Shown here: piece by piece, positions 4,193-40,764 of the stretch
How positions within the stretch are numbered: the stretch's first letter is position 1
Layout of the letters: every line of letters begins with the position of its first letter
NCBI GenBank assembly: GCA_022340465.1
Contig: JAJDNW010000003.1
Coordinates: 1-64,000, forward strand
DNA length: 64,000 nt
Source of the DNA: Deltaproteobacteria bacterium
GTDB taxonomy: Bacteria; Desulfobacterota; Desulfobacteria; Desulfobacterales; B30-G6
Direction of reading: 5' to 3'
Translations under genes and position numbers: made by a program
Notes under the pieces: model-generated
The model's database searches: none
Seen by the model: the letters and a program-made list of their open reading frames with translations, nothing else
What the model was told of the DNA's origin: nothing

Positions 4193-5752
4193 CTACCTAT
4201 TGAAAAACGATACAAGCTCGAGGTTGCCCACGGCTTTTTCCACCGTCTCGATGATTTCCCCGGTGCGGATCAGGGCAACCATTTTATCGATGTCCTGCCC
4301 CAGTTCGCGGTCTTTGTCAAGATAAGACACGTGTTCCCGGATGATCCGGTAGGCTTCCCGGGTTCCTCTGCCCCAGACGAGTTTTTTCTTTTCCGTCAGG
4401 AGGTCGTAGGCCTGGGCCGCGCAGAGCATTTCTACGGCAATGACATGCTCGACATTGTCCAGGATTTCCCGGCACTGCCTGATGGCGATGGTGCCCATGC
4501 TGACGTGGTCCTCTTTGTTGGCGGAGGTGGGGATGGAGTCCACGCAGGCGGGATGGGCCAGCACTTTGTTTTCCGAAACCAGCGCTGCAGCGGTGTACTG
4601 GGCGATCATAAATCCGGAGTTGAGACCGCCGTTTTTGACGAGGAAGGCCGGCAGTTCGCTCAGTTGCGGATTGACCATGCGCTCGGTGCGCCGTTCGGAC
4701 ACATTGCCGAGTTCGGCGATGCCCATGGAGAGGTAGTCGGCCGCCATGGCGATGGGCTGTCCGTGAAAGTTGCCTCCCAGGCGGATTTCCCGTGTGTCGG
4801 CAAAAACCAGGGGGTTGGTGGTGGTGGCATTGATTTCGATGTCCACAACATGGCGGGCATGCACGACCGCATCCTTGCTGGCGCCGTGGATCTGGGGAGA
4901 GCATCGCAGGGTATAGGCGTCCTGCACACGGGCACACCCCGCGTGGGAGAGGATAATTTCGCTTTCAGCGGTCAGTCGCAGCAGGTTGTCGGCCGAGGCC
5001 ACCTGGCCGGGGTGCGGGCGGATCTCATGGATGCGCGGATCGAACTCCGAGTTGCTGCCCATGAGCACTTCCAGGCTCATGGCACAGGCGATATCGGCCA
5101 GTTTGGCCAGGCGGATGGCATCATGCACCACCAGGCTGGCAATCCCGGTCATCACCTGGGTGCCGTTGATCAGGGCCAGGCCTTCACCGGCAGCCAGATC
5201 CAGCGGTTCCAGGCCGATGCTTGCCAATGCCTTTGCGCCGTCCATGCGCTCATCACCATGAAAGGCTTCCCCTTTGCCGAGGAGGACCAGCCCCAGGTGG
5301 GCCATGGGCGCCAGGTCGCCGCTGGCTCCCACGGATCCCTTTTCCGGGACCACGGGCGTCACGTCATCATTTAAGAAAGCCATCAGGTATTGCAGGGTTT
5401 TCAAGGAGCAGCCCGAATACCCCATGAACAGGTCGTGGAGGCGCACGGCCATGACGGCCCTCACCACATCCTGCGGCAGGGGTGCTCCGATGCCGGCGGC
5501 GTGGCTCATAATGACCTTGTGCTGCAGCCGGCGCGTGTCGGATGCGGAAATAGGGACATTGCACAAGGCGCCGAATCCGGTGGTGATGCCGTAGATCGCC
5601 TTCTTTTCCCTGATCCACCCGTCGATCAGCCGGCGGGTACGCTCAACGCGCTGCCCCCCTTTGGAAGAGGCTTTCACCGGGCATCCGAAGCGGGCAATGG
5701 CGACGACGTCGTCGAGGGTCAGCTTTTGCTTGTCGATGATGACGGGTTTCAT
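4193..5752 (-). CDS. hutH: Histidine ammonia-lyase
   Basis: This 519-residue aromatic amino-acid lyase would convert L-histidine to urocanate and ammonia. The MIO cofactor triad Ala-Ser-Gly is at residues 143-145, in GSVGASGDLAP. Other active-site residues of true histidine lyases are in place: Tyr54 in YGITTGFG, His84 in SHAAG, Asn196 in LINGTQ, the QDAYTLRC segment, GNFHG, and Glu in SANKEDHVSMG. The ATG at 5752 is chosen over an upstream in-frame ATG at 5800 because TTTGGGGTGTC precedes it and the homology begins there. It lies 160 bp after hutU and leads into the ferredoxin and molybdoenzyme genes. Ergothionase, a relative that releases trimethylamine, is less likely because the usual lyase residues are kept, but it is not excluded. 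Confidence 0.93.
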   Translation of the reverse strand: MKPVIIDKQKLTLDDVVAIARFGCPVKASSKGGQRVERTRRLIDGWIREKKAIYGITTGFGALCNVPISASDTRRLQHKVIMSHAAGIGAPLPQDVVRAVMAVRLHDLFMGYSGCSLKTLQYLMAFLNDDVTPVVPEKGSVGASGDLAPMAHLGLVLLGKGEAFHGDERMDGAKALASIGLEPLDLAAGEGLALINGTQVMTGIASLVVHDAIRLAKLADIACAMSLEVLMGSNSEFDPRIHEIRPHPGQVASADNLLRLTAESEIILSHAGCARVQDAYTLRCSPQIHGASKDAVVHARHVVDIEINATTTNPLVFADTREIRLGGNFHGQPIAMAADYLSMGIAELGNVSERRTERMVNPQLSELPAFLVKNGGLNSGFMIAQYTAAALVSENKVLAHPACVDSIPTSANKEDHVSMGTIAIRQCREILDNVEHVIAVEMLCAAQAYDLLTEKKKLVWGRGTREAYRIIREHVSYLDKDRELGQDIDKMVALIRTGEIIETVEKAVGNLELVSFFNR

Positions 5753-5914
5753 ATGACACCCCAAATTTTCTTTGACCAGAATCCGGCGGGCACAGGCCAT
5801 GCCTCGGTTTGATATGGTGTTTTGAAAAATGAACCCGCCACCCGCTTAGGGCATACGGAGCCTTATTCGGACAAACACTATAACCGACCTCTGTCTTTTT
5901 TCAATGTTCTGCGC

Positions 5915-7945
5915 TCATTTCCTGTTAAAGCTTTCATCCACCAGGCGTTCGACCAGATCGTCCCGTGCAACAAAAGGGACGGTGATGTGGCCCACCCCCC
6001 GGTTCGACCGGTTGAAAGCCTTGCTGACTTCCATGGCATTGGCGTTCCTGGCCCAGCTACGCCGGGCCACGCCGCCCATAACATCCCAGGAGATGGCGGA
6101 TCGGATGGTGTCGTCCACCCGCTGGCTGCCGTCCAGCACCAGACCGAAACCGCCGTTGATGGCGTTGCCGATTCCCGTACCGCCGCCGTTGTGCAGCGCC
6201 ACCATGGACATCCCCCTCGCGCAGTTGCCGGCAAAACAGTGGGTGGCCATGTCGGCCATGACATTGCTGCCGTCCCTGATGTTGGCAGTTTCACGGAAAG
6301 GGGCGTCCGTCCCGCCCGGATCATGGTGGTCTCTTCCGATCATGATGGGCCCCACGTCGCCCCTTCTCACCATTGCGTTGAATTTCAGGGCGATGTTGAT
6401 TCTCCCTTCGGCATCCTGGTAGAGGATGCGCGCCTGGGTTCCCACAACCAGGCGGTTCTTCTCGGCATCCCGGATCCAGACCCAGTTGTCGCGGTCCTGA
6501 AATCTGCGGTCGGGATCGATGCACGCCAGGGCGGCCTTGTCGGTCTTGACGAGATCGTCGTGTCTGCCGCTCAGGCATACCCAGCGAAAAGGGCCGTAGC
6601 CGAAGTCAAAGATGCGGGGCCCCATGATGTCCTCGAAGTAAGACGGGAAGATGAAGCCGTCTTTTTCATCCACACCGTTTTTGGAGATGCGGGTGACGCC
6701 GGCATCGAAGACGGCTTTGAGGAAGGCATTGCCGTAATCGAAAAAGAAGGCGCCCCGTTCTGTCAGGGTTTCGATCAGGTCGATATGGCGGCACAGGCTT
6801 TTATCCACCAGCTTGCAGAAGGTGTCACGGTCTTCAGCCAACAGCCGCGTTCTTTCTTCGAAAGAGATGCCCTGGGGGCAGTATCCCCCATGGTGGGCGA
6901 CATGGCAGGAGGTCTGGTCCGATAGAAGGTCGATCTTTTCGTTGTTGTCCACGGCGTAGGCTAAAAGGTCGACGATGTTGCCGTGAAAGGCGATGGATGC
7001 GGGACGGTCTGACCGCAATGCCTTGCGGGCCGTGGCAAACGCTTCGGCAAGGTCTGTGGTAACGTGGCCGACCCAACCCTGGGAATGACGTGTCTGAATT
7101 CTGGACGCATCCACTTCGGCGATGATGGAAACGGCGCCGGCAATTTCCGCAGCCTTGGGCTGTGCCCCGCTCATCCCCCCCAAGCCGGAAGAAACGAACA
7201 GTCGCCCCTTGAGGCTGGCTTCTCTGCCCAGGCCGAACCTGATTCTACCGGCATTCAACAGGGTGTTGTAGGTACCGTGGACGATTCCCTGGGGGCCGAT
7301 GTACATCCATCCGCCGGCGGTCATCTGCCCATAGCTGGCCACGCCCATCTGGGCGGCGACTTCCCAGTCGTCGAGGTTGTCATAAATGCCCACCATGAGG
7401 CCGTTGGTAATGATCACCCGCGGGTTGGACGGGCGCGATTCGAAGAGGCCCAAGGGATGCCCGGAAGCCATCACCAGGGTCTGGTCTTCGGTCATTGCTT
7501 CCAGGTACATCTTTATCAGGCGATACTGCATCCAGTTCTGACAAACGCTGCCGGTTTCGCCGTAGGTGACCAACTCGTAGGGGTAGAGGGCCACGTCGAA
7601 ATCCAGATTGTTGTCGATCATTACCTGGAAGGCCTTGGCGGCCAGACACCGGCCCCGGTACTGGTCGATGGGTTTGGCCTTGACCGGGCCGGCGGGCCGG
7701 AAGCGGTAACCGTAGACCCTTCCCCGGGTGGTCAGTTCCTTCATAAATTCAGGGGCTAATTTTTCGTGCAGGTGGGGGGGGATGTACCGCAGGGCGTTCT
7801 TGAGCGCCGTCTCCGTTTGGGCCTGGCTCAGGCGGAATCCGCGATCCGGCGCCCGGCGGATGCCCGGGGCAAATTCGGGGTGCTCGGGCAGGACAGGAGC
7901 GAGTTGGAACCGGGTCACGTTATCGTCGTCGGCTGGCATGGTCAT
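5915..7945 (-). CDS. hutU: Urocanate hydratase
   Basis: This 676-residue urocanase uses tightly bound NAD to hydrate urocanate to imidazolonepropionate, the second step of histidine breakdown. Family signatures are clear: ETGSVCQNW, the SGLGGMSGAQ segment in the NAD-binding core, GHVTTDL, DQTSCHVAHHGGY, and the C-terminal ALHNGGGTGIGNAINGG. It belongs to the longer urocanase type of about 670 residues. The ATG at 7945 is preferred because GGAGGTG lies just upstream; the in-frame extension to 8047 has no family similarity. It is the first gene of the minus-strand block, with a HutC-type operator about 215 bp upstream. No imidazolonepropionase (hutI) or formiminoglutamate enzyme is present in the window, so the pathway is completed elsewhere or differently. 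Confidence 0.95.
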   Translation of the reverse strand: MTMPADDDNVTRFQLAPVLPEHPEFAPGIRRAPDRGFRLSQAQTETALKNALRYIPPHLHEKLAPEFMKELTTRGRVYGYRFRPAGPVKAKPIDQYRGRCLAAKAFQVMIDNNLDFDVALYPYELVTYGETGSVCQNWMQYRLIKMYLEAMTEDQTLVMASGHPLGLFESRPSNPRVIITNGLMVGIYDNLDDWEVAAQMGVASYGQMTAGGWMYIGPQGIVHGTYNTLLNAGRIRFGLGREASLKGRLFVSSGLGGMSGAQPKAAEIAGAVSIIAEVDASRIQTRHSQGWVGHVTTDLAEAFATARKALRSDRPASIAFHGNIVDLLAYAVDNNEKIDLLSDQTSCHVAHHGGYCPQGISFEERTRLLAEDRDTFCKLVDKSLCRHIDLIETLTERGAFFFDYGNAFLKAVFDAGVTRISKNGVDEKDGFIFPSYFEDIMGPRIFDFGYGPFRWVCLSGRHDDLVKTDKAALACIDPDRRFQDRDNWVWIRDAEKNRLVVGTQARILYQDAEGRINIALKFNAMVRRGDVGPIMIGRDHHDPGGTDAPFRETANIRDGSNVMADMATHCFAGNCARGMSMVALHNGGGTGIGNAINGGFGLVLDGSQRVDDTIRSAISWDVMGGVARRSWARNANAMEVSKAFNRSNRGVGHITVPFVARDDLVERLVDESFNRK

Positions 7946-8160
7946 GGGAACACCTCCATCAAGAACCGGTCTGTCTTCGATAATCGTTCGGAGAACGCTG
8001 ACCCCAGGGTTGCAACTGTGGGGTTGATGTGTCCTATACCTACTCAATTTAGGCTATAGTATGATCCTTTTAAAAATTCAATTACAGCCGGCCTTCCGGC
8101 TTCATTTTATGGCGTTATTCCTGCAGCCATAAAAATGATCTTGATCTTGGAACGCCGAGA

Positions 8161-9317: not shown

Positions 9318-9947
9318 ATGTCGTTGGAGGAATTGAGCAAGCTGGTGGAAGACGGTGAAACCGAGACAGCACAGGAACTGGCAGGGAAACTGCTGGCGGA
9401 TGGTACGGATCCGCTTGAAATGATTGCCGAAATGACCCGGACCATGGCCCATGTGGGGGACCTTTTTTCCAAACTGGAGATTTTTTTACCCGAAATCATG
9501 CTGGCCGGAGAGGCGCTGACCGGTGTGGTCGAAGTCCTGTCCCCCTATCTTGAAGCGGTGGGCGGCCAGGAAGTCAAGGGCAAGATCGTGATCGGTGTGG
9601 TCAAGGGTGACCTGCATGAGATCGGCAAAAACATTGCCAAGCTGATTCTGGAAACCAGCGGCTTCGAGGTCAAGGACCTGGGCTACAATGTCGATCCGCT
9701 TACCTTCATCAAGGAAGCAGAAGCCATGGGTGCCGATGTCATCGGCGCGTCTTCCCTGATGACCACCACCATGCCGCGTCAAAAGGAGATCATCGAGATC
9801 ATGGAAGCCAAAGGAATCAGGGACCGATTCAAGGTCGTTATCGGCGGCGCACCCACCTCCCAAATGTGGGCCGATCAGATCGGCGCGGATCTCTATTGCC
9901 GCGAGGCAAAGGATATACCGGAATTGCTGGTGAATCTACTTCACTAA
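9318..9947 (+). CDS. Corrinoid methyl-carrier protein (MtbC/MttC family)
   Basis: This 209-residue protein has a four-helix cap domain (about residues 1-90) and a B12-binding Rossmann domain. The base-off cobalamin signature is KGDLHEIGKN, where the His would ligate cobalt, followed by GASSLMTTTM and VVIGGAPTS. In methylamine, methanol and betaine systems such proteins carry the methyl group between a substrate-specific methyltransferase and a second methyltransferase. AAAGGAGG precedes the ATG at good spacing. It is the first gene after HutC-type operator 2 and is followed by an MtmB homologue and a UroD-family methyltransferase, which gives a complete three-part methyl-transfer set. Confidence 0.95.
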   Translation: MSLEELSKLVEDGETETAQELAGKLLADGTDPLEMIAEMTRTMAHVGDLFSKLEIFLPEIMLAGEALTGVVEVLSPYLEAVGGQEVKGKIVIGVVKGDLHEIGKNIAKLILETSGFEVKDLGYNVDPLTFIKEAEAMGADVIGASSLMTTTMPRQKEIIEIMEAKGIRDRFKVVIGGAPTSQMWADQIGADLYCREAKDIPELLVNLLH

Positions 9948-10143: not shown

Positions 10144-11526
10144 ATGACCACAGCCTACAGGCACTGGGAAATTCTGGAGCGTTCCCAGACCGGCCCCTTT
10201 ATGGACGAGGATGATTTCCTGCCGCGGCTTTTTACGCCCACGCTGAAAAAGCTCATCAAGAAGTACGAAATCAAGTACGATCCCGCGAACCCCTGCCCGA
10301 CGGATGACGACATGGCCGACCGGATCTGGCAGGCGGCCTGGGATCTGTTCCGGGAGGTGGGCTACTACAACACCGATACCCACCGCATCATCCAGGTCAG
10401 CGACGAGGAAATCCGCGAAGCGCTGTACATGGCCCATGATCAGTACTGGGTGGGTGCGGGCAAGGATGCCGTGTTGTGGAAACACCGCCAGGTTGAGGAC
10501 ACGGATCCACCCTTTTGCATCATGAGCCCGGACATCACCTGCGACGAGCAGTACCACCAGTCCATCTGCATGGCCTATCTCAAAGAACCGCTCCTCGACG
10601 GTATCTGCGGGCCGATTCTGGAGGAGACGTTTGGTCACCTGATTTCCTCTTCGGGTCCTACGGAAATCAGCGGATGCATTCAACATATCTACAACCAAAA
10701 AATGGCGGCAAGGCTGCTGGGTCGTCCCGGAACCTTCATGGTGGCCGTGGGCACCGCCGAGCATGACAGCGGACAGATCGCGGTCTCCAACGATGAGTGG
10801 GGGGTTCAGAAAACAGACGCCCGCCTGGTGGGATCCCTGACCGAATTCAAGACAGCGGACACCTTGTTGAACCGTTCCCTGCACTACGCGCAGTACGGAT
10901 GCTTTACCGGCAACCTGACCGGGGCGATTTACGGCGGATGGTGCGGCGGGTCCGAAGGCACGGCCGTCACCACGGTGGCGTACAGCCTCATCGGTCTGGT
11001 AATCCACGGGGCCGTTTTCAACCAGCACTTTCCCTTTCATCTGAACTACGGCTCCAATACCACCCGCGAGCTGTTGTGGCCCGTTGCCATGGCCGGCCAG
11101 GCTCTGGCCAGAAACAGCCGGCTTTTGCAGACCTCCAACGGGTTCGCCAATGCGGGCCCCATGACGGAGATGCTGTTCAGGGAAACGGCCGTGCACGCCA
11201 TGGTGTCCACGGTAACCGGTTGGCATTTGTGGGAGATGGCTTCTGCACGCAATAAATACAGAAACCGGGCCACGCCCCTGGAAGCGCGCATCGGTATGGA
11301 AGTGGGGCACGCCGTGGCCCGGCAGGGACTTTCCAGGGCCGAAGTGAACGAGATCGCCAACCGGCTCCTGGCCACCTACGAAGACAGTGCAGCGGATGCG
11401 CCCATGGGATCGGAATATCAGGAATGCTACGATGTGGCCAAGGCGGTGCCGACCCAGGAGCACTACGACATGTTCCGCCGGGTGAAGGACGAAATTGCCG
11501 GCATGGGGATCGAATTTCCATTTTAA
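10144..11526 (+). CDS. MtmB-family corrinoid methyltransferase lacking pyrrolysine
   Basis: This 460-residue protein resembles archaeal monomethylamine methyltransferase MtmB (458 residues) along its whole length. Shared segments are TDTHRI near the N-terminus, LGRPG before the active site, an RELLW segment, and QECYDV near the C-terminus. MtmB carries pyrrolysine at position 202, encoded by an in-frame UAG. Here residue 202 is valine (GTG, in FMVAVG) and the frame has no amber codon. It therefore probably demethylates a substrate other than monomethylamine, as non-pyrrolysine MttB homologues do. ACAAGGAGATG precedes the ATG. It is flanked by a corrinoid carrier and a UroD-family methyltransferase, its expected partners. 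Confidence 0.85.
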   Translation: MTTAYRHWEILERSQTGPFMDEDDFLPRLFTPTLKKLIKKYEIKYDPANPCPTDDDMADRIWQAAWDLFREVGYYNTDTHRIIQVSDEEIREALYMAHDQYWVGAGKDAVLWKHRQVEDTDPPFCIMSPDITCDEQYHQSICMAYLKEPLLDGICGPILEETFGHLISSSGPTEISGCIQHIYNQKMAARLLGRPGTFMVAVGTAEHDSGQIAVSNDEWGVQKTDARLVGSLTEFKTADTLLNRSLHYAQYGCFTGNLTGAIYGGWCGGSEGTAVTTVAYSLIGLVIHGAVFNQHFPFHLNYGSNTTRELLWPVAMAGQALARNSRLLQTSNGFANAGPMTEMLFRETAVHAMVSTVTGWHLWEMASARNKYRNRATPLEARIGMEVGHAVARQGLSRAEVNEIANRLLATYEDSAADAPMGSEYQECYDVAKAVPTQEHYDMFRRVKDEIAGMGIEFPF

Positions 11527-11623: not shown

Positions 11624-12658
11624 ATGGCTAAGCAAATGTTGATCGACGCCACCCGCGGAAAAAAAACCGAAAAGGCGCCCTGGTTGCCCTATGCCGGATG
11701 CAACTGCGCCTATTTGATCCAGGAAAAGGCGGACCGGTTTTTCAAGGATGCCGACCTGTTGGCAAAGGGAGTCGTGACGGCCGCCGCCACCTATCATGCA
11801 GACGGCATTCCCCTGTTGTTCGATCTTTCGGTCGAAGCCGAAGCTGTGGGCTGTGAGCTGGAGTTCTGGGAGGACAATGTTCCTTCGGTCAGAACCCATC
11901 CCTGTGAAAAAGAAACGCCCGAGGAACTGGGCATGGGGCTCTTTACCCGGGAGAGTGGACGCTGGCCGGTCATTTTCGAGGCAGCGGCCAAGACCAAGCC
12001 GCAGCTGGACGAAATGGACTGCGCCATGCTCGGCCTGGCAGCGGGCCCCCTGACCCTGGCCTCGCATCTGGCCGGCGTGCGCATCTTCACGGCTGTAAAG
12101 AAAAACAAGGCATTTGCCCATGCGGTTACCGCCTATGCCGGCAGACTGTGCGCCGAGTCAGTCAGGTACTATGCGGAAATGGGGTGCGACATCATCGCCA
12201 TCGTGGACCCGGTAGCCTCCCAGATTCGACCGGAAACCTTTCGGGAATTCGTGACACCCAACTGCCAAGAAGCGATAGCGGCCATTCACGCGGCCGGCAA
12301 GACGTCGACCTTTTTTATCTGCGGCGACTGCACCAAGGTCATCGAAGAGGTCTGTCAGACGGGCACCCATGGCTTTGCCGTCGACGAGCAGATGAACATG
12401 AACTTCATCCGCGACATCGCCATGAAATACAACAAGGGCTTTGGCGGTAATTTGAAACTGACCCTGGCCCTCAGTCTGGGGCTGCTGTCCCCCAGGGAAG
12501 ATGCGCTGGCAAGCCTGGCCGCCGGCGGTACCAGGGGCTACACCTTTGCTCCCGGCTGAGACCTTCCTTTCGATGTTCCGGCGGAACATCTGATTCAGGC
12601 CTACGAAGCCCGGGAGTGGTTTGATGAGCATTATCCGAAGTATCCGGATGTTGGATGA
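11624..12658 (+). CDS. UroD-family corrinoid methyltransferase (MtaA/MtbA-like), probable selenoprotein
   Basis: The conventional frame stops at TGA 12557-12559, but the family continues past this point. Reading through the TGA adds 32 residues, which begin DLPFDVPAEHLIQAYEA, and ends at TGA 12656-12658 for a 344-residue product. The TGA stands at residue 312, where MtaA/MtbA homologues have the last zinc-binding Cys of the HxC...C motif in a PGC-like context (here APG, then TGA). The first Cys is Cys233 in FFICGDC, 79 residues earlier, the family spacing; the usual His two residues before it is Phe231. A perfect 8-bp hairpin starts 12 nt after the TGA. The protein would move methyl groups between the corrinoid carrier and an acceptor such as a folate or thiol. 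Confidence 0.8.
12557..12559 (+). other. Probable selenocysteine (UGA) codon
   Basis: This in-frame TGA replaces the codon of the conserved last zinc-ligand cysteine of a UroD-family methyltransferase. It is followed by family-like coding sequence and a SECIS-like hairpin. A truncation at this point would remove one metal ligand and the C-terminal helix. A sequencing or assembly error, TGC or TGT read as TGA, is the main alternative. Confidence 0.78.
12572..12590 (+). promoter_or_regulatory. Bacterial SECIS-like hairpin
   Basis: GATGTTCC (12572-12579) pairs perfectly with GGAACATC (12583-12590) around the three-base loop GGC. The loop begins 20 nt after the UGA and has G at its first two positions. 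Stem length, loop size, G placement and distance all fit the published model of bacterial selenocysteine insertion elements. The hairpin lies inside the extended coding frame, as bacterial SECIS elements do. Confidence 0.75.
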
Positions 12659-12711: not shown

Positions 12712-12785
12712 GTCATTCCCGCGAAAGCGGGGATCCAGGGCAAATAGCTAATCGCTTTCTGGATCCCCGCCTTTGCGGGGATGAC
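12712..12785. repeat. REP-like palindromic repeat, copy 1
   Basis: Two arms of about 26 bases, starting GTCATTCCCGC and ending GCGGGGATGAC, are inverted around a short centre and contain GGATCCAG/CTGGATCC. The 30-base centre recurs with two changes within 55438-55535. It is a dispersed palindromic intergenic element, which may act as a bidirectional terminator or messenger stabiliser here. Confidence 0.75.
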
Positions 12786-12911: not shown

Positions 12912-13304
12912 ATGAATGACAAAATCAAAATCGATGTATTGACCCTGGACAGTGTGCAGTGTGCGGCCTGCGGCTACATGATGGAGTCCATCGCGGCGCT
13001 GCCGACCGACGTGCAGGCGATGATTGCGTACAGAGAGTGGTCGATCAAGACCAGGGACGGCATCGCCATGTTCACCAGGCTCAAGGGCAAGGTGCTTCCC
13101 ACCATCTGCATCGAGGAGGATCTGGTTTTTCAGAGCATGATTCCCCAGTACGAGGAGTTGATCGATGCCCTGGCCGAAAGAGCGCATTCAGGTGAACAGC
13201 GTGAGCGCATCCTGTCCCTGCGGGACGAGGGTTTTGACTTCGACAACATCAAGTCAAACCTGGACAAGGCCGGTTCCGGGCGGAATTTGCGTACGGGTCG
13301 CTGA
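12912..13304 (+). CDS. Small thioredoxin-fold protein with CAAC motif
   Basis: This 130-residue protein has a CxxC pair (QCAACGYM) near residue 17 and a cis-proline-like LPTICIEE segment near residue 65. Together they suggest a thioredoxin or glutaredoxin-like fold. The C-terminal 30 residues are charged and look less structured. GGAGTGG precedes the ATG. It sits inside the corrinoid methyltransferase module between the UroD-family gene and the CobW-type GTPase. It might keep metal-binding cysteines or the corrinoid carrier reduced, or deliver a metal, but the sequence does not fix a function. Confidence 0.75.
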   Translation: MNDKIKIDVLTLDSVQCAACGYMMESIAALPTDVQAMIAYREWSIKTRDGIAMFTRLKGKVLPTICIEEDLVFQSMIPQYEELIDALAERAHSGEQRERILSLRDEGFDFDNIKSNLDKAGSGRNLRTGR

Positions 13305-13415
13305 GAGATATATTTCGACGCCATTTCAAAGCGGGATGACTTGAAGGCTGCGATGACGGAGAGGCTGCAGCCAACCGCTATAGAAGGTAAGAAAAGCAGA
13401 AGGAGCGGTATTAAC

Positions 13416-14396
13416 ATGGGGGCGACAACCGATGTGTTTCTGATCACCGGTTTTCTGGGAAGCGGCAAGACCACTTTCCTGAACCGGATCATCAAGGCGT
13501 TCCCAAGGGATCGTAGCCTCATGATCCTGATGAACGAATTCGGCGACCTGGGCGTGGACGGGGCTCTGGTGGAAGGGGAGGATCTGGACATGCTGGAGAT
13601 CAGCAGGGGATCGATCTTCTGTGTCTGCGTCAAAACCGATTTCATCAGGGGGCTGGCGGATATCGCCAAAAACAAGCGTCCCGACGTCCTGCTGATCGAA
13701 GCAACCGGCGTGGCCAACCCCACGGACGTGAAAAAGGACCTCGAGCTGTCGATTTTTAAAAACCGGTTTCAGCTCAAGGAGCAGTTCTGCCTTATCGATG
13801 CCGCCAACTTCGAGGATGTCTACGATACCTTCACATCGGTTGAAAAACAGCTGGAAAGCGCCACACTTTTTATCATCAATAAAATCGACGAAGCCGACGC
13901 CGCTGCCGTCGCCAGAGTTCGGGAAATTGTCAGACGGCACCATCCGGAGCCGGCAATCATCGAAACCCGATATGCGGACATCCCCCTGGAAAATTATCTT
14001 TCCACCCGGGACCTTTTGAGCGGTGATCGTCTGCCGGATATTTCCCCGGCGGAACTTGACCGTTTCATTGACGGCCTCATGGCAGCGCCCGGGCTCTCCA
14101 TGATGCCGGCCGATCAATTGGTGTCAAAGACGGTCGCCTGGGCCGGCGGAAGCCGCCAGTCCCTTGCCGAAATGGTTGATAAAATGCCCGCCGGAATTCT
14201 GAGGGCCAAAGGGATTGTTCAGGCCGGCGACGGCGTGTATCTGTTTAACTGCGTGATGGGCAAGAGCCGGTTTGAAAGGGTCGCCGCAAGGACAGGCATG
14301 GCCGCCATCATGAACCGGTTGGTTTTCATCGGAACCCCTGAAGCGATGGAACGACTAGAGAAGGTCGAGTTCAAGGACCTGTTTCAGGAGAAGTAA
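13416..14396 (+). CDS. CobW/COG0523-type GTPase, metal-chaperone family
   Basis: This 326-residue P-loop GTPase has Walker A GFLGSGKTT (residues 12-20), a Walker B-like segment DVLLIEATG, and the specificity motif INKIDEAD. This is the order of the CobW/HypB-related G3E family. The family's usual CxCC metal motif appears as FCVCV, with one Cys fewer. AGAAGGAGCGG precedes the ATG at 13416; an in-frame start at 13341 has no such site. Relatives deliver zinc, cobalt or other metals. Here a role in loading zinc or maintaining the corrinoid enzymes of the same operon is plausible. It lies 22 bp before the MttB homologue. Confidence 0.88.
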   Translation: MGATTDVFLITGFLGSGKTTFLNRIIKAFPRDRSLMILMNEFGDLGVDGALVEGEDLDMLEISRGSIFCVCVKTDFIRGLADIAKNKRPDVLLIEATGVANPTDVKKDLELSIFKNRFQLKEQFCLIDAANFEDVYDTFTSVEKQLESATLFIINKIDEADAAAVARVREIVRRHHPEPAIIETRYADIPLENYLSTRDLLSGDRLPDISPAELDRFIDGLMAAPGLSMMPADQLVSKTVAWAGGSRQSLAEMVDKMPAGILRAKGIVQAGDGVYLFNCVMGKSRFERVAARTGMAAIMNRLVFIGTPEAMERLEKVEFKDLFQEK

Positions 14397-14418: not shown

Positions 14419-15894
14419 ATGGTAACGCCAACAGACGTCACGTCGCAGTGCCTGCCCACCTACAGGATGCTCACCCCGGATCAGATCGAGCATATTCACA
14501 CGGCCACCCTGGAACTGCTGAAAACCGTGGGCGTCAAGGTGATGGCTCCGGAGGCCGTCGCCATGCTGGCCGGCGCCGGCTGCGAGGTAACGTCAGGGAA
14601 TATTGTCAAGATACCCAATCGGCTGGTGGAGGCGTCGATTGCCAGCGCGCCTTCGTGGATTACCATCTACAACCGTCTGGGGAAGGAAGCCATGCATCTG
14701 GGGGGCCGCAAGAGCTATTTCGGTCCGGGCACGGACCTGATCAAGACGTACGACCTGGAAACCGGCGAATTGCGCGCATCGCAGCTTATCGATGTGGCCA
14801 ATGCCGCCCGCGTGGCCGATGCTTTGGAGGAGATCGACTTTCTCGGTTCCTACGCCCTGCCTTTCGATTCCCCCACCAACCTGATGTACATCGACTCCTT
14901 TAAAACCCAACTGGAGAATTCCATCAAACCGATCTTTTACACGGCGGCCGGAGTGGCCGACATTGCCGTGATCAACGCCATGGCGGCGGCAGTAATGGGC
15001 GGAGAGGATGCGTTGAAAGCCAAGCCGATCCACATCCATTACGCCGAGCCGCTGACGCCGCTGACGCATTCCTCCGGTGCCATTCAGAAGCTCTTTTTTT
15101 GTGCCGACAAGGCCGTGCCGGTATGTTACACGCCCGGTATGATGTCCGGGGCCAGCGCACCGGTGACCCTGGCCGGCGCTATTACGGTGGGCAATGCCGA
15201 AGCTTTGAGCGGGATCGTCATGCATCAACTGCGGAAAAAGGGCGCTCCCATTATTTCAGGATTCGGCATGTCCACCCTGGACATGAAGACGTCGGCGTGT
15301 GTCTACGGCTGCCCGGAATATCGCCTGGCCCTGTCGGCCTGTGCGGATCTCTATCACTACTACGGCGTTCCCATGTGGGGCACGGCCGGGGTCAGCGATG
15401 CGCACGCCCCGGATGAACAGGCGGGCGTGGAGTGGTCCATCTCCCTGCTCGCGGCGGGCCTGGACGGGGCCAACCTCGTTCACGACGTCGGCTACATGGG
15501 ACAGGGGCTGGTGGGCTCGCCGGCGGCTCTGGTGATGAATGCCGAGATCATCAGCTACGTGCGCCGCGTCATCGAGGGCTTTGACATCGATGCGGAACAC
15601 ATCGGTATGGACGTGATCCGGGAGGTCGGACCCCAGGGGGCCTATATCGCCACGCCGCAGACCAGGCAGTATTTCAAACAAGAGCACTGGCAGCCGCAGC
15701 TTTTCAACCGTGAAACCCTGGAACCCTGGATAGCCCGGGGAAGGAAAACGTGGGGTGCCAAAGCCGTAGAAAAAGCCAAACAGCTCCTTAAAAACCACCG
15801 TCCGCAAAAGCTGCCCGAAGATGTGCGCAGCACCCTCGATCGGCTGCGTCAAGCGGCCCTCGAAAAACTCGAGGGTGAACACATAGGCGCATAG
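14419..15894 (+). CDS. MttB-superfamily methyltransferase without pyrrolysine
   Basis: This 491-residue protein belongs to the trimethylamine methyltransferase superfamily (MttB/MtgB). It shows the N-terminal SMLTPDQIE-like start, HLGGRKSYFGPGTD, the central PVTLAGAITVGNAE segment and MWGTAGVSD near the active site. The frame has no UAG, so it is one of the non-pyrrolysine members. Known members of that kind demethylate quaternary amines such as glycine betaine, proline betaine or carnitine. GAGGATGATACC precedes the ATG. Together with the MtmB homologue upstream, it gives the module two substrate-specific methyltransferases, as if a multiply methylated amine were demethylated stepwise. The substrate is not known. 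Confidence 0.92.
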   Translation: MVTPTDVTSQCLPTYRMLTPDQIEHIHTATLELLKTVGVKVMAPEAVAMLAGAGCEVTSGNIVKIPNRLVEASIASAPSWITIYNRLGKEAMHLGGRKSYFGPGTDLIKTYDLETGELRASQLIDVANAARVADALEEIDFLGSYALPFDSPTNLMYIDSFKTQLENSIKPIFYTAAGVADIAVINAMAAAVMGGEDALKAKPIHIHYAEPLTPLTHSSGAIQKLFFCADKAVPVCYTPGMMSGASAPVTLAGAITVGNAEALSGIVMHQLRKKGAPIISGFGMSTLDMKTSACVYGCPEYRLALSACADLYHYYGVPMWGTAGVSDAHAPDEQAGVEWSISLLAAGLDGANLVHDVGYMGQGLVGSPAALVMNAEIISYVRRVIEGFDIDAEHIGMDVIREVGPQGAYIATPQTRQYFKQEHWQPQLFNRETLEPWIARGRKTWGAKAVEKAKQLLKNHRPQKLPEDVRSTLDRLRQAALEKLEGEHIGA

Positions 15895-16026: not shown

Positions 16027-18111
16027 TCAGGCTGCTGTTTTCACGCTGGGAAAGGCATCGATATTGGTGTGCGGCAAAAAAAGCGCCGACGTGTATTCAT
16101 CCATGAATCCGCTGTTGCTGGAAAAATCGATATAGGTCATGCTGTTTGAGATATCACGCGCTTCATGCCGGTATTCGTCGCTCAACAGCGCCAAATATGC
16201 GCCGCCGATGGAACTGTTGCCCAGATATTTGAATTTGCTGCGGTCGATGTCCGGCAGCAGTCCGATGGTAACGGCTTTGTCGATATCGAGGTACTGCCCG
16301 AATCCGCCGGAGATCCAGATGCGGTCGACCATGGCAAAATCGAGGCCGGCCTGATTGAGCAGTACCGTAAAGCCGGCATATACAGCCGCCTTGCTCATCA
16401 TGAGGCTGTTGATGTCGGTTTCCGTGAAGATGATGTCCTCGTCCATCTGCGTATCTTGCATAGGGGCAATGATATAGGCTTTCTGATCGTTTTCGCGCTT
16501 CATTCTCGGGTGGCTCTCGTCCAGTTTGAATTTACCATTGGGATCGATGATGCCTTTGAGCAGCATTTCCGAAATCAGGTCGATCATCCCCGATCCGCAA
16601 ATTCCCCTGGCGGGGGCATTTTCGACGGTTTCATAGGATGGCGCACGGGTGTCGGGGTCGATGGTGATTTTTTCGATGGCGCCTTCCTCGGCCCGCATGC
16701 CCCAACGGATGCCGCCCCCCTCGAAGGCCGGGCCTGCCGAGCAGGCCGCCGTCATCAGCCAGTCCCTGTTTCCCAGCACAATTTCGCCGTTGGTTCCGAC
16801 ATCGATGAACAACGTCAGCGGCTCTTCACGGTGAAGGCCGGAATATAGCATTCCTGAAACGATGTCTCCGCCGACGTAGCTGGCGGGACCGGGCATGATG
16901 AAAACCGCGGCAATTGGATCGGCTTTGATGCCGATCTCCCCGGCTTTGAAGAAGGGGAATTCCGAGGCAGTGGGGATGTAAGGTTCCCGGCGGATGTAGC
17001 GCGGTTCGATCTTGAGCAGCAGATGCGTCATGGTGGTGTTGCCGGACAGGACGACATTTTTAATCTGCCGGTAGTCGCTTTCGGCGCTTTCCAGCGCTTC
17101 GCCGATCAGGTTGTTGATGGTGGACAAGACCATGCCGCTGAGCTTGTTGACCCCGTTTTTTTCTGCACAGATAATGCGGTTGATCACGTCGTCCCCGCAG
17201 GCGGCCTGCTTGTTATGGCCTGAGGTGGCGGCCAGAATGGAGCCGTCTCCCATGTCTACCAGGTAGACGACGATTGAGGTGGTGCCGACGTCGACGGCAA
17301 GGCCCAGCGATTTTTCATTGCCGTTGCCGGGAGCGACCTTCAGGATTTCGTTGGAGCATTTTTTTCGAATGACCGTTGCCTTGACCTTCCAATTTTCGTG
17401 GCGCATGGCATTGGAAAGCTCGCGCATGACGTTCAGCCCGACATTCATACGGCTGATATCGCAGCCGGCCTTTTTCAGGCCCCGGTTGAGCCTGTCCAGA
17501 TCACTGACCGAGTCTTCCAGGGTCGGCGGCTGGAGCGTCAAGTTGATCTCTTTGATCATGGGGTCGATTTCCGTGACCAGCCCTTTGAATTTGGCGGACA
17601 ATTCATTCCCGAGACCGGCAACTTTCAGTTTTCGCTCCACCGCTTCGGGCGGAATACTGACGACGACCTCTTCGCCCGGTTTTGCCTGACAAGCCAGTAC
17701 ATATCCTCTTTCCTTTTCCCGGGCCGTGAGAAGGGGGGTGTCTTCCGATTCCACAGTCCCGGATTCCAAAACCAGCTTGCATTTGCCGCAGGCGCCTTTG
17801 CCGTTGCAGGAGGCGTTGATGTGGACATCCGCTTTTTGGGCGGCGTCCAGCAGCGTCGATCCCGGTTCGACCTCAACGGTTGTATCTTGAGGCTGAAAGG
17901 TCACCCGACGGGCAGCTGCCTTCTCCAATGCCGCTTGTTGACGGGCCTCTCTCAGCTTGCGTTTGTGCTCATACCAAATGGGGCAGGCGCTGCGGAATTT
18001 ACAGTAAATATTGGGATCGCGGCATTCGAGACACTCTTCGCAAAGATAGGTGCCGTGTTTGGAGCACATGTAATTGGTTTCACGATCCGGATGATTGATG
18101 CATTTTCCCAT
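16027..18111 (-). CDS. RamA-like reductive activator of corrinoid proteins (ferredoxin-ASKHA ATPase)
   Basis: This 694-residue protein has three parts. The first 45 residues hold a Cys/His-rich zinc-finger-like segment. Residues about 70-155 are a plant-type 2Fe-2S ferredoxin domain with Cys102, Cys108, Cys111 and Cys141. The rest, from about residue 265, is an ASKHA ATPase of the DUF4445 type (LAVDVGTTS, a GNTTMTHL segment, IDVGTNGEIVLG, CGSGMID, and WISGGFGQY). Proteins of this kind use ATP to drive one-electron reduction of oxidised cob(II)amide carriers to the active Co(I) state. It converges on the MttB gene and has AAGGATAAGAA before its ATG. It supplies the repair function of the module; the extra N-terminal finger is unusual. 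Confidence 0.9.
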   Translation of the reverse strand: MGKCINHPDRETNYMCSKHGTYLCEECLECRDPNIYCKFRSACPIWYEHKRKLREARQQAALEKAAARRVTFQPQDTTVEVEPGSTLLDAAQKADVHINASCNGKGACGKCKLVLESGTVESEDTPLLTAREKERGYVLACQAKPGEEVVVSIPPEAVERKLKVAGLGNELSAKFKGLVTEIDPMIKEINLTLQPPTLEDSVSDLDRLNRGLKKAGCDISRMNVGLNVMRELSNAMRHENWKVKATVIRKKCSNEILKVAPGNGNEKSLGLAVDVGTTSIVVYLVDMGDGSILAATSGHNKQAACGDDVINRIICAEKNGVNKLSGMVLSTINNLIGEALESAESDYRQIKNVVLSGNTTMTHLLLKIEPRYIRREPYIPTASEFPFFKAGEIGIKADPIAAVFIMPGPASYVGGDIVSGMLYSGLHREEPLTLFIDVGTNGEIVLGNRDWLMTAACSAGPAFEGGGIRWGMRAEEGAIEKITIDPDTRAPSYETVENAPARGICGSGMIDLISEMLLKGIIDPNGKFKLDESHPRMKRENDQKAYIIAPMQDTQMDEDIIFTETDINSLMMSKAAVYAGFTVLLNQAGLDFAMVDRIWISGGFGQYLDIDKAVTIGLLPDIDRSKFKYLGNSSIGGAYLALLSDEYRHEARDISNSMTYIDFSSNSGFMDEYTSALFLPHTNIDAFPSVKTAA

Positions 18112-18270: not shown

Positions 18271-19908
18271 TCAAGCTGCTTTTTTATTGTTATTGGTCGG
18301 ACGTTCTTCCTCAGCCGGCGATATGACGTTGGCGGTGTTTTCGTTTTCGGGCAACCGCACCACCATGACCGGCCGGGAACACCTGCGGATAACGTCTGCG
18401 GCAACACTGCCGATGACGGCCTGGCCGAGCTTTCCGTGGCCATGGGTCCCCATGATGATCAGGTCATAGTTCCCCTGACGCGCCGTCGTCAAGATTTGCT
18501 CCACTGGATTGCCCACACGGATCTCCACGTTTTTTTCGTTCAACGGGCAGTGGGGGATTTCACGAGCCACTTTGCGCGAGGTTTCGCTGATCCGTTCGTG
18601 CACGGTTTTCTTGGCGGCTTCAATGCCTTTGATGTTGAAAGACTCCCACTCTTTTTTTCCCATGTGTTCGGCCAGATTTATGCCCGTTCCCATGGATATC
18701 TCTTCCACGATGTCCGGAATGATGTGCAGCAGGGTGACCTCGGCTTTATACTGGTGGCCGAGGCTGCAGGCGTAGCGGACAGCGTGGCGAGCTGTGTCGG
18801 ACAGATCCGTGGCGTAAAGAATGCGTTTGATAGCAGGCACCATGACGTTGTCTTCCAGGGGCAACGGCTCGGGCATTTCCGTATCGAATGTATCGGGTTG
18901 GACAATTTCAGCAGGTCGGGCGCCCTTTGCCCTTTGCGTGCTTCGGCCAAAAATCCAGTCGACCGACTTGACATACCATGCGGCCGACTGAATCTGGATG
19001 ACATAGGCCAGAGCGATCAGCAGGGCAATGGTGACACCCTGTTTACCGAAGGCTGTCATGGCAATGGCCAGGGCAATGGAGAGATCCCGCATCACCACAC
19101 CGTAAACCATGGCAATGGCGTCTCCGCGCCGAAAGAAAAGTCGGCCCACTATGGATAGCAGGCTGTATGAAACTAGATAAAATACAGCCAGCGGTGCCAG
19201 AATGCTCAAAATGTCGCCGGGGTTGGCGATAATGCTTTTGGCCTTCAAAGACATGGCTACGAAGGCAATCAGGACAACGCCCAATGCCGAGAAAGGAGGG
19301 AATTTGGGTTTGATGCGCTGATTCCAGGTCATTTCACCAAATTTTTTCCTGAAAATCGCTTGGGTGGCAAGACCGGCTACGAGAGGTACGAACACAAAAA
19401 GCGCGATCTGTTTGAACATGTGCAGCATGTTTACCTCGATCGTAGCACCCATGAAAACCTTTGTGTAAATGGGTGCGGCCAGGGCGCCGATAATCAGACC
19501 GAAAACCACCATTTTGATGGCGGCTTCCTTGTTGCCCCTGGCAAACCCTGTCCACGAGATGGTCATGCCCGAGGTGGGCAGGACACCGATCAGGAAAAGC
19601 CCCACGGCCCAAAGTGCATATTTTTCCGGCCCTCCGGAGAAGAAAAGTCTGCCGATGAAATAGGCAATGGCGGGAATGAGCACGAAGTTGATAAATTGGG
19701 TGGTTAGCTGAAGTTTATAGTCCTCTCCCTTGAAAACGCTTTTGACATTCAGGGTGACCATCATGGGGTAGACCATGATAAAGGTCACGGGAATGATACC
19801 CTGTTTAAGGGGCGCGGCGTTGAAGAAATAGCCAAAGGCGAGGCCAAATGCCATGGAAATCGGAATGGCCCACACCAGATTTTTTTGTAGTAGTGTCAGT
19901 AGGTTCAT
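18271..19908 (-). CDS. ACR3/bile-acid-symporter family permease fused to a universal stress protein domain
   Basis: This 545-residue protein joins two modules. Residues about 1-320 have nine to ten hydrophobic segments and resemble the ACR3/BASS (BART) transporter superfamily, including GVLPTSGMTISWTGFARGN, where ACR3 arsenite exporters have their conserved region. Residues about 350-515 form a cytoplasmic UspA domain with the nucleotide-binding pattern GTHGHGKLGQAVIGS and a final PVMVVRL. GGGAGA precedes the ATG. The permease may export arsenite or carry an organic anion, and the UspA domain could gate it through ATP binding. Neighbouring thioredoxin genes fit a thiol or stress setting; no arsR or arsC lies nearby. 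Confidence 0.85.
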   Translation of the reverse strand: MNLLTLLQKNLVWAIPISMAFGLAFGYFFNAAPLKQGIIPVTFIMVYPMMVTLNVKSVFKGEDYKLQLTTQFINFVLIPAIAYFIGRLFFSGGPEKYALWAVGLFLIGVLPTSGMTISWTGFARGNKEAAIKMVVFGLIIGALAAPIYTKVFMGATIEVNMLHMFKQIALFVFVPLVAGLATQAIFRKKFGEMTWNQRIKPKFPPFSALGVVLIAFVAMSLKAKSIIANPGDILSILAPLAVFYLVSYSLLSIVGRLFFRRGDAIAMVYGVVMRDLSIALAIAMTAFGKQGVTIALLIALAYVIQIQSAAWYVKSVDWIFGRSTQRAKGARPAEIVQPDTFDTEMPEPLPLEDNVMVPAIKRILYATDLSDTARHAVRYACSLGHQYKAEVTLLHIIPDIVEEISMGTGINLAEHMGKKEWESFNIKGIEAAKKTVHERISETSRKVAREIPHCPLNEKNVEIRVGNPVEQILTTARQGNYDLIIMGTHGHGKLGQAVIGSVAADVIRRCSRPVMVVRLPENENTANVISPAEEERPTNNNKKAA

Positions 19909-38398: not shown

Positions 38399-40759
38399 TT
38401 AGAATTCTTTTTGGGCCGTGCGTTCGATGATCTCCTGCTGGTGGTACTTGTCCAGGTCCACGAAGTAGTCGCTGTAGCCGGCCACGCGCACCAGGAGGTC
38501 GGTGTAGTCTTCGGGAACGGCCTGGGCCTTTTTCAGGGTTTCCGTGTCCACGATGTTGAACTGGATGTGGTGACCGTTAAGCCTGAAGTAGGTGCGGATG
38601 AGATGCACCAGCTTGTCCAGATCCGTTTCGGTTTTGAGAACGTCCGGCAGGAAACGCTGGTTTAAAAGGGTGCCGCCGGATTTGATCTGGTCCATTTTTC
38701 CCAGGGATTTTACCACGGCCGTAGGCCCGTTGCGGTCGGCGCCGTGGGACGGCGACGTACCGTCGGAGATGGGCATCCCTGCAAGGCGTCCGTTGGGCGT
38801 GGCCCCCAGCATCCTGCCGAAGTAGATGTGACAGGTGGTGGAGAGCATGTTCAGGTGATACCCACTTCCCTTGGTGTTGGGTTTTCCGTCGATGGCGTCG
38901 AAAAGGGAGGCGTAAACCCGCTGCATCAGGTTGTCGGCGTAGTCATCGTCATTACCGAAAAAGGGGGTCTTGTTCCAGAGCTTGAGACGCAGGGCCTCTT
39001 CGTTTTTAAAGTCGGCTTTCAAACCTTCGAGCAGCGTTGCCATGCTGATGGTCTGTTCCTCGAAAACGTGCTTTTTCAAGGCCGACAGGCTGTCGGTGAT
39101 GGTGCCGATGCCGCAGCACTGGATGTAATTGGTGTTGTAGCGCGGCCCACCGTCGTAATAGTCCCGTCCCTTTTTGATGCAGTCCTGGATGACCACGGAC
39201 AGAAAGGGCGCCGGGGCATGTTCGGCGAACATCCGCTCTATGTAGTTGTTGACGCGTATTTTCAGATCGACGACGTGGTTAAGCTGCGTGACGAAGGCCT
39301 GATAAAGCGTATCGAAGCTGTCAAAGGTCAGCGGATTCCCGGTTGCTGGCCCCAGGCGTTCACCCGACAGGGGGTCGATGCCGTTGTTCAGCGCCAGCTC
39401 GAGAACTTTCGGCACGTTCAGGTAGCCCGTCAGGATGTAAGCTTCCTTGCCGAAGGCGCCGGTTTCTATGCAACCGCTGCATCCTCCCTCCCTTGCGTCC
39501 TCGATACTTTTTCCCACCCGGAGCTGTTCCATGATCACTTCATCGGCATTGAACACGGAAGGGTACCCGTAGCCTTTGCGGATGACCCGGCAGGCGGCCT
39601 TGAGGAAACGGTTTGGTGTTTTGTCGCTGATCTGCACATTGCTCTGGGGCTGGAGCAGGTGGAGTTCGTCGATCACCTCCAGGATGATGTAGGACAGCTT
39701 GTTGACCGCGTCCGTGCCATCGGGCTTAAGTCCCCCCAGGTTTATGTTGGTGAAATCGTTGTAGGTACCGCTTTCCTTGGCCGTTACCCCGACCTTGGGC
39801 GGTGCCGGGTGGTTGTTGACCTTGATCCACAGGCAGCTGATCAGTTCCTTGGCGCGCTCCCTGTCGAGCGTGCCGTCGTCGCGGTCCTTTTGATAGAACG
39901 GCATGAGGTGCTGGTCCAGGCGCCCGGGATTCATGGCGTCCCAGCCGTTGAGTTCCGTGATGGTGCCCAGGTGGACGAACCAGTACATCTGGATGGCTTC
40001 CCAAAGGTTCTCCGGCGCATGGGCCGGCACACGGCGGCAGACGGCGGCGATGGCCTCGAGTTCCTTTTTGCGCTCAGGGTCCTCTTCCCGTGCTGCCATG
40101 GACAGCGCCAGGTCGGCATGCCGCTCGGCGAACAGAATGGCCGCATCGCAGGCGATCTCCATGGCCTTCAGGTTTTCCGCCTTTTGGGTGGCCGTTCTGT
40201 CGGCAAGGTAATCCAGCGCTTCGACGGCCAGGGCGATCTCCTTTTTAAAATCGAGCATGCCCTTTCTGTAAATGGTTCCGTCCAGGGTGGTGTGGCCGGC
40301 CGCACGTTGTTCCATGAACTCGGTGAAAAGCCCCGCCCGGTAGGCTTTTTCCCAGATGGCGGGTACGTGGCCGAAGACCCTGTCCCGCATGCTTCTTCCC
40401 TTCCAGAAGGGAACGACCTCCCTGTCATAACGATCGGTCTCCTCGTCGGAAATGCGAAAACGGGTCATGGGCCGTTCGTTGAGTATGCGCAAATCTTCAG
40501 CCGAGTGGCAGGTCAGTTCCGGAAAGGTTGAAACGGCCTTGGGAAAGGGGCCCCGTTCGCCCACGATCAGTTCGTCTTTGCCGATGTAGATGGTTTTTTT
40601 GGCGCAGAGCTCCCTGAAGACCAGGGCGCGCATCACGGGCGTCGAGTGTTTGCCCAGGTTGTCTTTGTAAAATTCGGTTTCTATCAGCGCCCTTTCGATG
40701 GAGATGCTGGGCACGGCTTCGAAGCTTTCCTTGCGGAGTCGCTGGATACGTGCATTCAT
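38399..40759 (-). CDS. Glycyl-radical enzyme, HypD (hydroxyproline dehydratase)-like
   Basis: This 786-residue protein has the glycyl-radical motif RVAGYSDYF with the radical Gly near residue 761. The active-site cysteine lies in the segment GGCSGCIETGAFGKEAY. As far as I recall that family, its sequence tracks trans-4-hydroxyproline dehydratase (HypD) over its length, including FTEFMEQRAAGHT, QMYWFVHLG and NVQIS. The ATG at 40759 is preferred over TTG 40768, with GGGAGG upstream. It is 5 bp after the activase gene. HypD makes pyrroline-5-carboxylate from hydroxyproline; a closely related substrate is possible. No proC gene is seen in the window. Isethionate or choline lyase type is less likely. 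Confidence 0.85.
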   Translation of the reverse strand: MNARIQRLRKESFEAVPSISIERALIETEFYKDNLGKHSTPVMRALVFRELCAKKTIYIGKDELIVGERGPFPKAVSTFPELTCHSAEDLRILNERPMTRFRISDEETDRYDREVVPFWKGRSMRDRVFGHVPAIWEKAYRAGLFTEFMEQRAAGHTTLDGTIYRKGMLDFKKEIALAVEALDYLADRTATQKAENLKAMEIACDAAILFAERHADLALSMAAREEDPERKKELEAIAAVCRRVPAHAPENLWEAIQMYWFVHLGTITELNGWDAMNPGRLDQHLMPFYQKDRDDGTLDRERAKELISCLWIKVNNHPAPPKVGVTAKESGTYNDFTNINLGGLKPDGTDAVNKLSYIILEVIDELHLLQPQSNVQISDKTPNRFLKAACRVIRKGYGYPSVFNADEVIMEQLRVGKSIEDAREGGCSGCIETGAFGKEAYILTGYLNVPKVLELALNNGIDPLSGERLGPATGNPLTFDSFDTLYQAFVTQLNHVVDLKIRVNNYIERMFAEHAPAPFLSVVIQDCIKKGRDYYDGGPRYNTNYIQCCGIGTITDSLSALKKHVFEEQTISMATLLEGLKADFKNEEALRLKLWNKTPFFGNDDDYADNLMQRVYASLFDAIDGKPNTKGSGYHLNMLSTTCHIYFGRMLGATPNGRLAGMPISDGTSPSHGADRNGPTAVVKSLGKMDQIKSGGTLLNQRFLPDVLKTETDLDKLVHLIRTYFRLNGHHIQFNIVDTETLKKAQAVPEDYTDLLVRVAGYSDYFVDLDKYHQQEIIERTAQKEF

Positions 40760-40764
40760 TATGG

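Follow-up and report, generated by a model that had tools for sequence, protein, structure and literature searches.

We present here evidence that the in-frame UGA codon of a UroD/MtaA-like methyltransferase gene is, with near certainty, recoded to selenocysteine (Sec), an inference drawn from the conservation of the UGA, the exchange of Cys and Sec at its position, the constraint on a SECIS element behind it and the presence of sel genes. Our joint reading, to which we assign a probability of roughly 0.8, is that the product is a selenoprotein with Sec312 inferred to lie at a metal/thiolate methyl-transfer site, and with CobW and thioredoxin-like proteins as partners. Protein, selenium and metal data are absent; that zinc is bound, and what serves as substrate and acceptor, is inference. 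The gene lies in the window (by which we mean the whole stretch of 64,000 nucleotides that was analysed), together with the features listed in Table 1. A preliminary description of this DNA had the frame of the gene stopping at a TGA at 12557-12559, with 32 further codons before a second stop at 12656, and re-reading of the sequence bore this out: the frame opens with the ATG at 11624, and the second stop is also a TGA (12656-12658).

Table 1. Positions of the features discussed, numbered from the first letter of the window.
Feature	Position	Strand	Basis or remark
Cognate corrinoid protein	9318..9947	+	B12-binding PF02310/PF02607, TIGR02370 E 1.2e-53
MtmB-superfamily methyltransferase without pyrrolysine	10144..11526	+	PF05369 E 4e-86
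Putative Sec-containing UroD/MtaA-like methyltransferase gene	11624..12658	+	344 aa if read through, Sec = residue 312
UGA codon of predicted selenocysteine 312	12557..12559	+	Column of MtaA's third zinc-ligand Cys
32-codon C-terminal extension, reached only through the UGA	12560..12655	+	Conserved to residue ~342 in orthologues
Putative SECIS hairpin, 8 bp, GGC loop	12572..12590	+	Synonymous constraint, compensatory pairs
Thioredoxin-like protein, CAAC motif, partner gene	12912..13304	+	Synteny, fusion, weak NF047660 match
CobW/COG0523 GTPase, metallochaperone type	13341..14396	+	PF02492 E 8.4e-40
MttB-superfamily methyltransferase	14419..15894	+	PF06253 E 1.1e-97; frame reaches its stop codon without a TAG
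RACo-type corrinoid reductive activase	16027..18111	-	PF14574 E 2.4e-106

Codon 312 is TGA in every one of the 49 distinct orthologues first collected, which are all those that cover the codon and which are ~61-88% identical to the product of the window's gene. Isolates bearing the TGA include Desulfocicer vacuolatum, Desulfatitalea alkaliphila, Pelotomaculum propionicicum, Desulfotomaculum copahuensis and Desulfofundulus australicus. Of 58 genomes searched, 12 gave a full-length match (that of the window plus 11 relatives), always with exactly one internal TGA, and 42 loci came from scanning 84,980 genomes of different species; a wider search of the Bacillota added further Sec forms (L096-L101, L105 and L120) as well as Cys forms. 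Conserved Cys/UGA pairs at this column, for which a search had been suggested beforehand, were indeed found: across the whole clade (n = 77), 55 members carry TGA (Sec) and 22 carry TGC or TGT (Cys), with no TAA, no TAG and no sense codon other than Cys at codon 312 in any of the 77. One orthologue of 58% identity (L089), for example, has TGT. The tree calls for about five switches between Sec and Cys, of which well-supported branches force at least four, and Sec and Cys paralogues occur together in three genomes (G683, G754 and G531). Natural Cys twins, even within one genome, are available for comparison with the Sec form.

The hairpin that had been described behind the TGA (a perfect 8-bp stem with loop GGC, 12 nt downstream) was confirmed in the sequence, its 5' arm (12572-12579, GATGTTCC) and 3' arm (12583-12590, GGAACATC) enclosing a loop at 12580-12582 that lies 20 nt past the TGA. 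A small apical loop containing G is a published feature of bacterial SECIS elements (PMC1088965), and this criterion is met by a hairpin just 3' of the UGA with G in the first loop positions. As for chance, a perfect stem of at least 8 bp stands in the same position range at 7 of the 2051 TGA triplets of the window, and the stem behind TGA 12557 is the longest among the ~70 TGAs that end frames (here, a frame of 90 or more codons ended by TGA, with 28 or more open codons beyond). The hairpin is also conserved and constrained in the orthologues. Over codons 316-323 pS is 0.265, whereas 76 upstream segments of equal size average 0.755 and never fall below 0.593; a single synonymous codon is used almost exclusively at each of codons 317-321, and none of the 95 comparable columns of the gene is as uniform as the four-fold columns 318, 319 and 320. 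Compensatory changes were found at two stem pairs, a small count because much of the stem is invariant, and the observed covariation score was reached by no shuffle, while sliding the pairs by 2 columns gave similar scores with far fewer cells pairing. Two orthologues (L087 and L088) have a different stem, ACGTTC/GAACGT, as read by eye. On these comparisons we infer that the hairpin is under selection as RNA. A scan of the window against Rfam at gathering thresholds gave no match, and the case for a SECIS element is thus a comparative one, without an Rfam model behind it. In the Cys orthologue L089 (minus strand), a weakened hairpin, TGTTC-CAGTC-GAACA, occupies the SECIS position just after the Cys codon and is perhaps the remnant of a former Sec gene.

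A genome search for selA, selB, selC and selD had likewise been suggested, and all four, selC being the tRNA-Sec gene, are present above curated cut-offs; the selD of this genome itself holds one TGA. Of the genomes that hold a homologue, 19 of 21 encode selB, and the remaining two are 65% and 82% complete; selB is also present in the three Bacillota isolates tested.

The fold of the predicted protein is that of the UroD superfamily. An AlphaFold2 model in which Cys replaces Sec has a mean pLDDT of 94, and its closest solved structure is Methanosarcina mazei MtaA (4ay8; Z 41.1, rmsd 1.8 Å over 323 residues); UroD structure entries score Z 33-35, and the criterion of a UroD-superfamily (PF01208) profile plus a TIM barrel is met. 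The TIGR01463 (MtaA/CmuA) model matches with E 5.8e-36, yet with 124 bits against a curated cut-off of 235, and the MtaA model reaches 107 bits against a cut-off of 400, so that the family cut-off for MtaA/MtbA CoM methyltransferases is not met. In the alignment with M. mazei MtaA (4ay7), residue 312 falls on the APGC Cys and Cys233 on the HICG Cys. The zinc ligands of MtaA are the His and Cys of HICG plus the APGC Cys. The preliminary description had put Sec at the last zinc-binding Cys, and the alignment supports this placement, zinc ligation itself being an inference from the column. What does not stand is a plain exchange of sulfur for selenium in an MtaA-like zinc site, since the column of the zinc-ligand His (231) is Phe or Leu in all 77 clade members and Phe in the window's protein; for the same reason, zinc binding cannot be assumed from homology. 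The His-x-Cys plus distal Cys pattern of MtaA/MtbA is replaced by Phe231-x-Cys233 and Sec312, with His148 elsewhere, a residue found in 77 of 77 clade members and absent from nearly all outgroup sequences. The metal site may therefore be rearranged in the Sec/Cys clade. As the His148/Phe231 change is one evolutionary event, the moved ligand is a hypothesis and not proven. Three outgroup UroD-family sequences (L128, L001 and L127) have His at both the 148 and the 231 columns and are possible intermediates of such a move. UroD-superfamily S-methyltransferases have a His-Cys-Cys site (PMC10418091), and zinc-free methyltransferase activity is known in the superfamily from CdmB (PMC13222342). The loss of the zinc His with a new invariant His148 had been overlooked in the preliminary description, as had the thioredoxin-like partner.

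This partner has 130 residues, its CAAC is invariant among 30 aligned sequences, and its gene begins no more than 450 nt downstream of the methyltransferase in 47 of 52 loci. Foldseek with its model listed mostly thioredoxins, these being weak matches with no E under 0.05. Among the more distant relatives, about 16 have such a domain fused to the methyltransferase C-terminus, which makes a physical partnership of the two proteins likely; the fused relatives nearly all have Cys, one (L105) has Sec, and the motif of the fused domain is CAAC, or CPPC in three. About a dozen loci (L008, L013, L014, L022, L024, L025, L026, L047, L059, L083, L099, L100 and L101) hold a second thioredoxin-like paralogue downstream of the methyltransferase, with its own in-frame TGA (UxAC, UxPC or related, in contexts such as RQ-U-xAC and Q-U-xPC), then a hairpin, and with a weak match to NF047660. 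It is likely to be a further selenoprotein in the same cluster. Some clusters also contain a thioredoxin-reductase-like gene. The CobW/COG0523 GTPase, which probably starts at an ATG near 13416, was found downstream in 21 of the 23 loci whose available DNA reaches far enough. The window carries an inverted repeat at 12714-12783 (CATTCCCGCGAAAGCGGGGATCC and its near complement), which lies between the Sec gene and the thioredoxin-like gene and resembles a dispersed palindromic repeat.

A corrinoid protein or RACo accompanies the gene in 19 of the 20 loci with enough upstream DNA. The MtmB-like gene has neither an internal stop nor an in-frame TAG, with Val at the Pyl202 column of 1l2q; some of the Desulfobacterales have it beside the Sec gene as well, strongly conserved (79-94%). 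A link to pyrrolysine was rejected, as no in-frame TAG lies inside the MtmB-like or the MttB-like neighbour. The window holds a second MttB-superfamily gene without in-frame TAG at 52272-53807 (minus strand). Other genes, all on the minus strand, include hutH and hutU beside a HutC/GntR-like regulator (4193-8047), the hutU-like protein having 710 aa with a long N-terminal extension and also scoring against S-methyl-thiourocanate hydratase models; a sodium/bile-acid-symporter (arsenite-efflux-like) domain fused to a universal stress protein domain (18271-19908); and a glycyl radical enzyme above the cut-off for trans-4-hydroxy-L-proline dehydratase (38399-40768).

We propose that SelB and tRNA-Sec would read UGA 12557 as Sec, directed by the hairpin at 12572-12590, to give a 344-residue enzyme of MtaA/UroD fold in which, in the absence of metal data, Sec312 is inferred to replace the third zinc-ligand Cys of MtaA. 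Sec312 and Cys233, with His148 perhaps or even probably standing in for the lost His231, would form a metal/thiolate site, although no geometry has been measured. The reaction at this site would be methyl transfer between a methyl-corrinoid protein and a substrate that is a thiol or a selenol. Metal for the methyltransferase may come from the CobW GTPase, and the CAAC thioredoxin-like protein may serve the same site, in the simplest case either keeping the Sec/Cys ligands reduced or handling the thiol product. By analogy with the Mlp/Sdm enzymes, for which methyl-sulfur or methyl-selenium substrates have been proposed (PMC10418091, PMC11097638), such compounds would be a reasonable first test.

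Sec312 might instead be no structural zinc ligand at all. Together with Cys233 it could be the reacting nucleophile of a redox-coupled methyltransferase, taking the methyl group itself or forming a selenenylsulfide that the thioredoxin-like CAAC domain resolves. The zinc His lost in every clade member and the conserved or fused CAAC partner speak for this, as do the extra thioredoxin-like, thioredoxin-reductase-like and second Sec-containing thioredoxin-like proteins of several clusters. However, the Cys of the same column is a zinc ligand in MtaA, the CobW gene of metallochaperone type is also well conserved, and His148 is a ready substitute ligand; we regard the nucleophile as tenable but the less probable of the two roles for Sec312. 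A broader formulation that spans both roles is a selenium-dependent corrinoid system in which Sec is ligand or nucleophile of a rearranged His148/Cys233/Sec312 site, with a dedicated thioredoxin-like domain and methyl transfer coupled to thiol redox, and this we hold to be nearly an even bet. To our knowledge, methyl transfer is coupled to thiol redox in such a way in no UroD-superfamily enzyme.

The readings that deny Sec fare far worse. That the TGA is a true stop, with the gene truncated or decaying and the remainder a remnant, is what translation table 11 gives by default. Against it, the PF01208 (URO-D) profile match continues across TGA 12557 (E 4.1e-46), and pN/pS is 0.26 after the TGA compared with 0.22 before it, a similar amino-acid constraint on both sides, so that the codons beyond must be taken as protein-coding. 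Homologues ending at the same TGA without a conserved extension would have refuted the original proposal, and the C-terminal extension is conserved in all relatives. With nothing but TGA and Cys codons at this place across the 77 clade members, and sel genes present, we reject a true stop or pseudogene, which has hardly any chance of being correct. Equally improbable is that a suppressor or altered code inserts some other amino acid: nothing besides the open frame favours this, and we reject it because UGA also terminates this same gene (12656), the constraint is of SECIS type, sel machinery is present and homologues have Cys at the column. An assembly error turning TGC or TGT into TGA, conceivable in a fragmented assembly of 162 contigs, is the least credible reading and is excluded, since the 49 distinct TGA sequences come from independent assemblies of unrelated projects, several isolates among them, and from two phyla (Desulfobacterota and Bacillota).

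As Sec312, Sec would sit at a probable zinc methyl-transfer site and not at a simple redox site, which raises the question of whether a selenolate ligand alters methyl-transfer chemistry. Translation table 11 ends these genes at residue 311, so that many anaerobes probably carry a wrong annotation of the family; one of them would be an Olavius symbiont (L015, L035), of a kind for which there is an earlier selenoprotein survey. An inventory of 119 prokaryotic selenoprotein families published in 2026 (PMC13188914) has no UroD/MtaA entry, the deep-Sep study of 2025 on Desulfosarcina and others (PMC12013277) lists no UroD/MtaA selenoprotein, and NCBIfam (June 2026) gave no selenoprotein model for this family. 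Nor, judged by title or abstract, did full-text searches that combined selenocysteine or selenoproteins with uroporphyrinogen decarboxylase bring up a report of such a protein. The UroD/MtaA methyltransferase class has thus likely gained its first selenoprotein, though not certainly, as most subscription papers and GenBank annotation lay outside the comparison.

Compared with the known systems, the window's protein shares the fold of M. mazei MtaA (4ay7/4ay8; TIGR01463), with Cys233 as the Cys of HxC and residue 312 in the column of the APGC Cys, but is only 25% identical to it, has Sec for the last Cys and Phe for the zinc His, and falls below both the TIGR01463 and the MtaA cut-offs. ComA (PF02679), of CoM synthesis, had no match in this genome or 19 relatives (20 genomes), which makes CoM a less likely acceptor, though not an excluded one. 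Clustering of COG0523 proteins with mtaA/corrinoid methyltransferase genes has been described (PMC2770081) and, as in subfamily 13 of that study, the CobW-type GTPase here adjoins such genes; unlike subfamily 13, it adjoins a putative Sec-containing enzyme and a thioredoxin-like partner. This partner and the Sec paralogues resemble the HUIPC-motif thioredoxin-like (seleno)proteins of NF047660 by weak matches, and one L026 neighbour passes the cut-off; however, they carry CAAC or UxAC and score below that cut-off, and synteny and fusion link them to the methyltransferase. Similar in setting are the Mlp (type 1 mlp gene clusters) and SdmABC systems of methyl-selenide demethylation, for which methyl-selenium chemistry has been proposed (PMC10418091, PMC11097638) and in which MtaA-like UroD methyltransferases likewise stand beside a corrinoid protein and reductive activase, mostly in Sec-using anaerobes. 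Those methyltransferases have a His-Cys-Cys site, with few Mlp1 exceptions, and no Sec, whereas the window's enzyme would hold Sec within the site itself, from which the His is absent.
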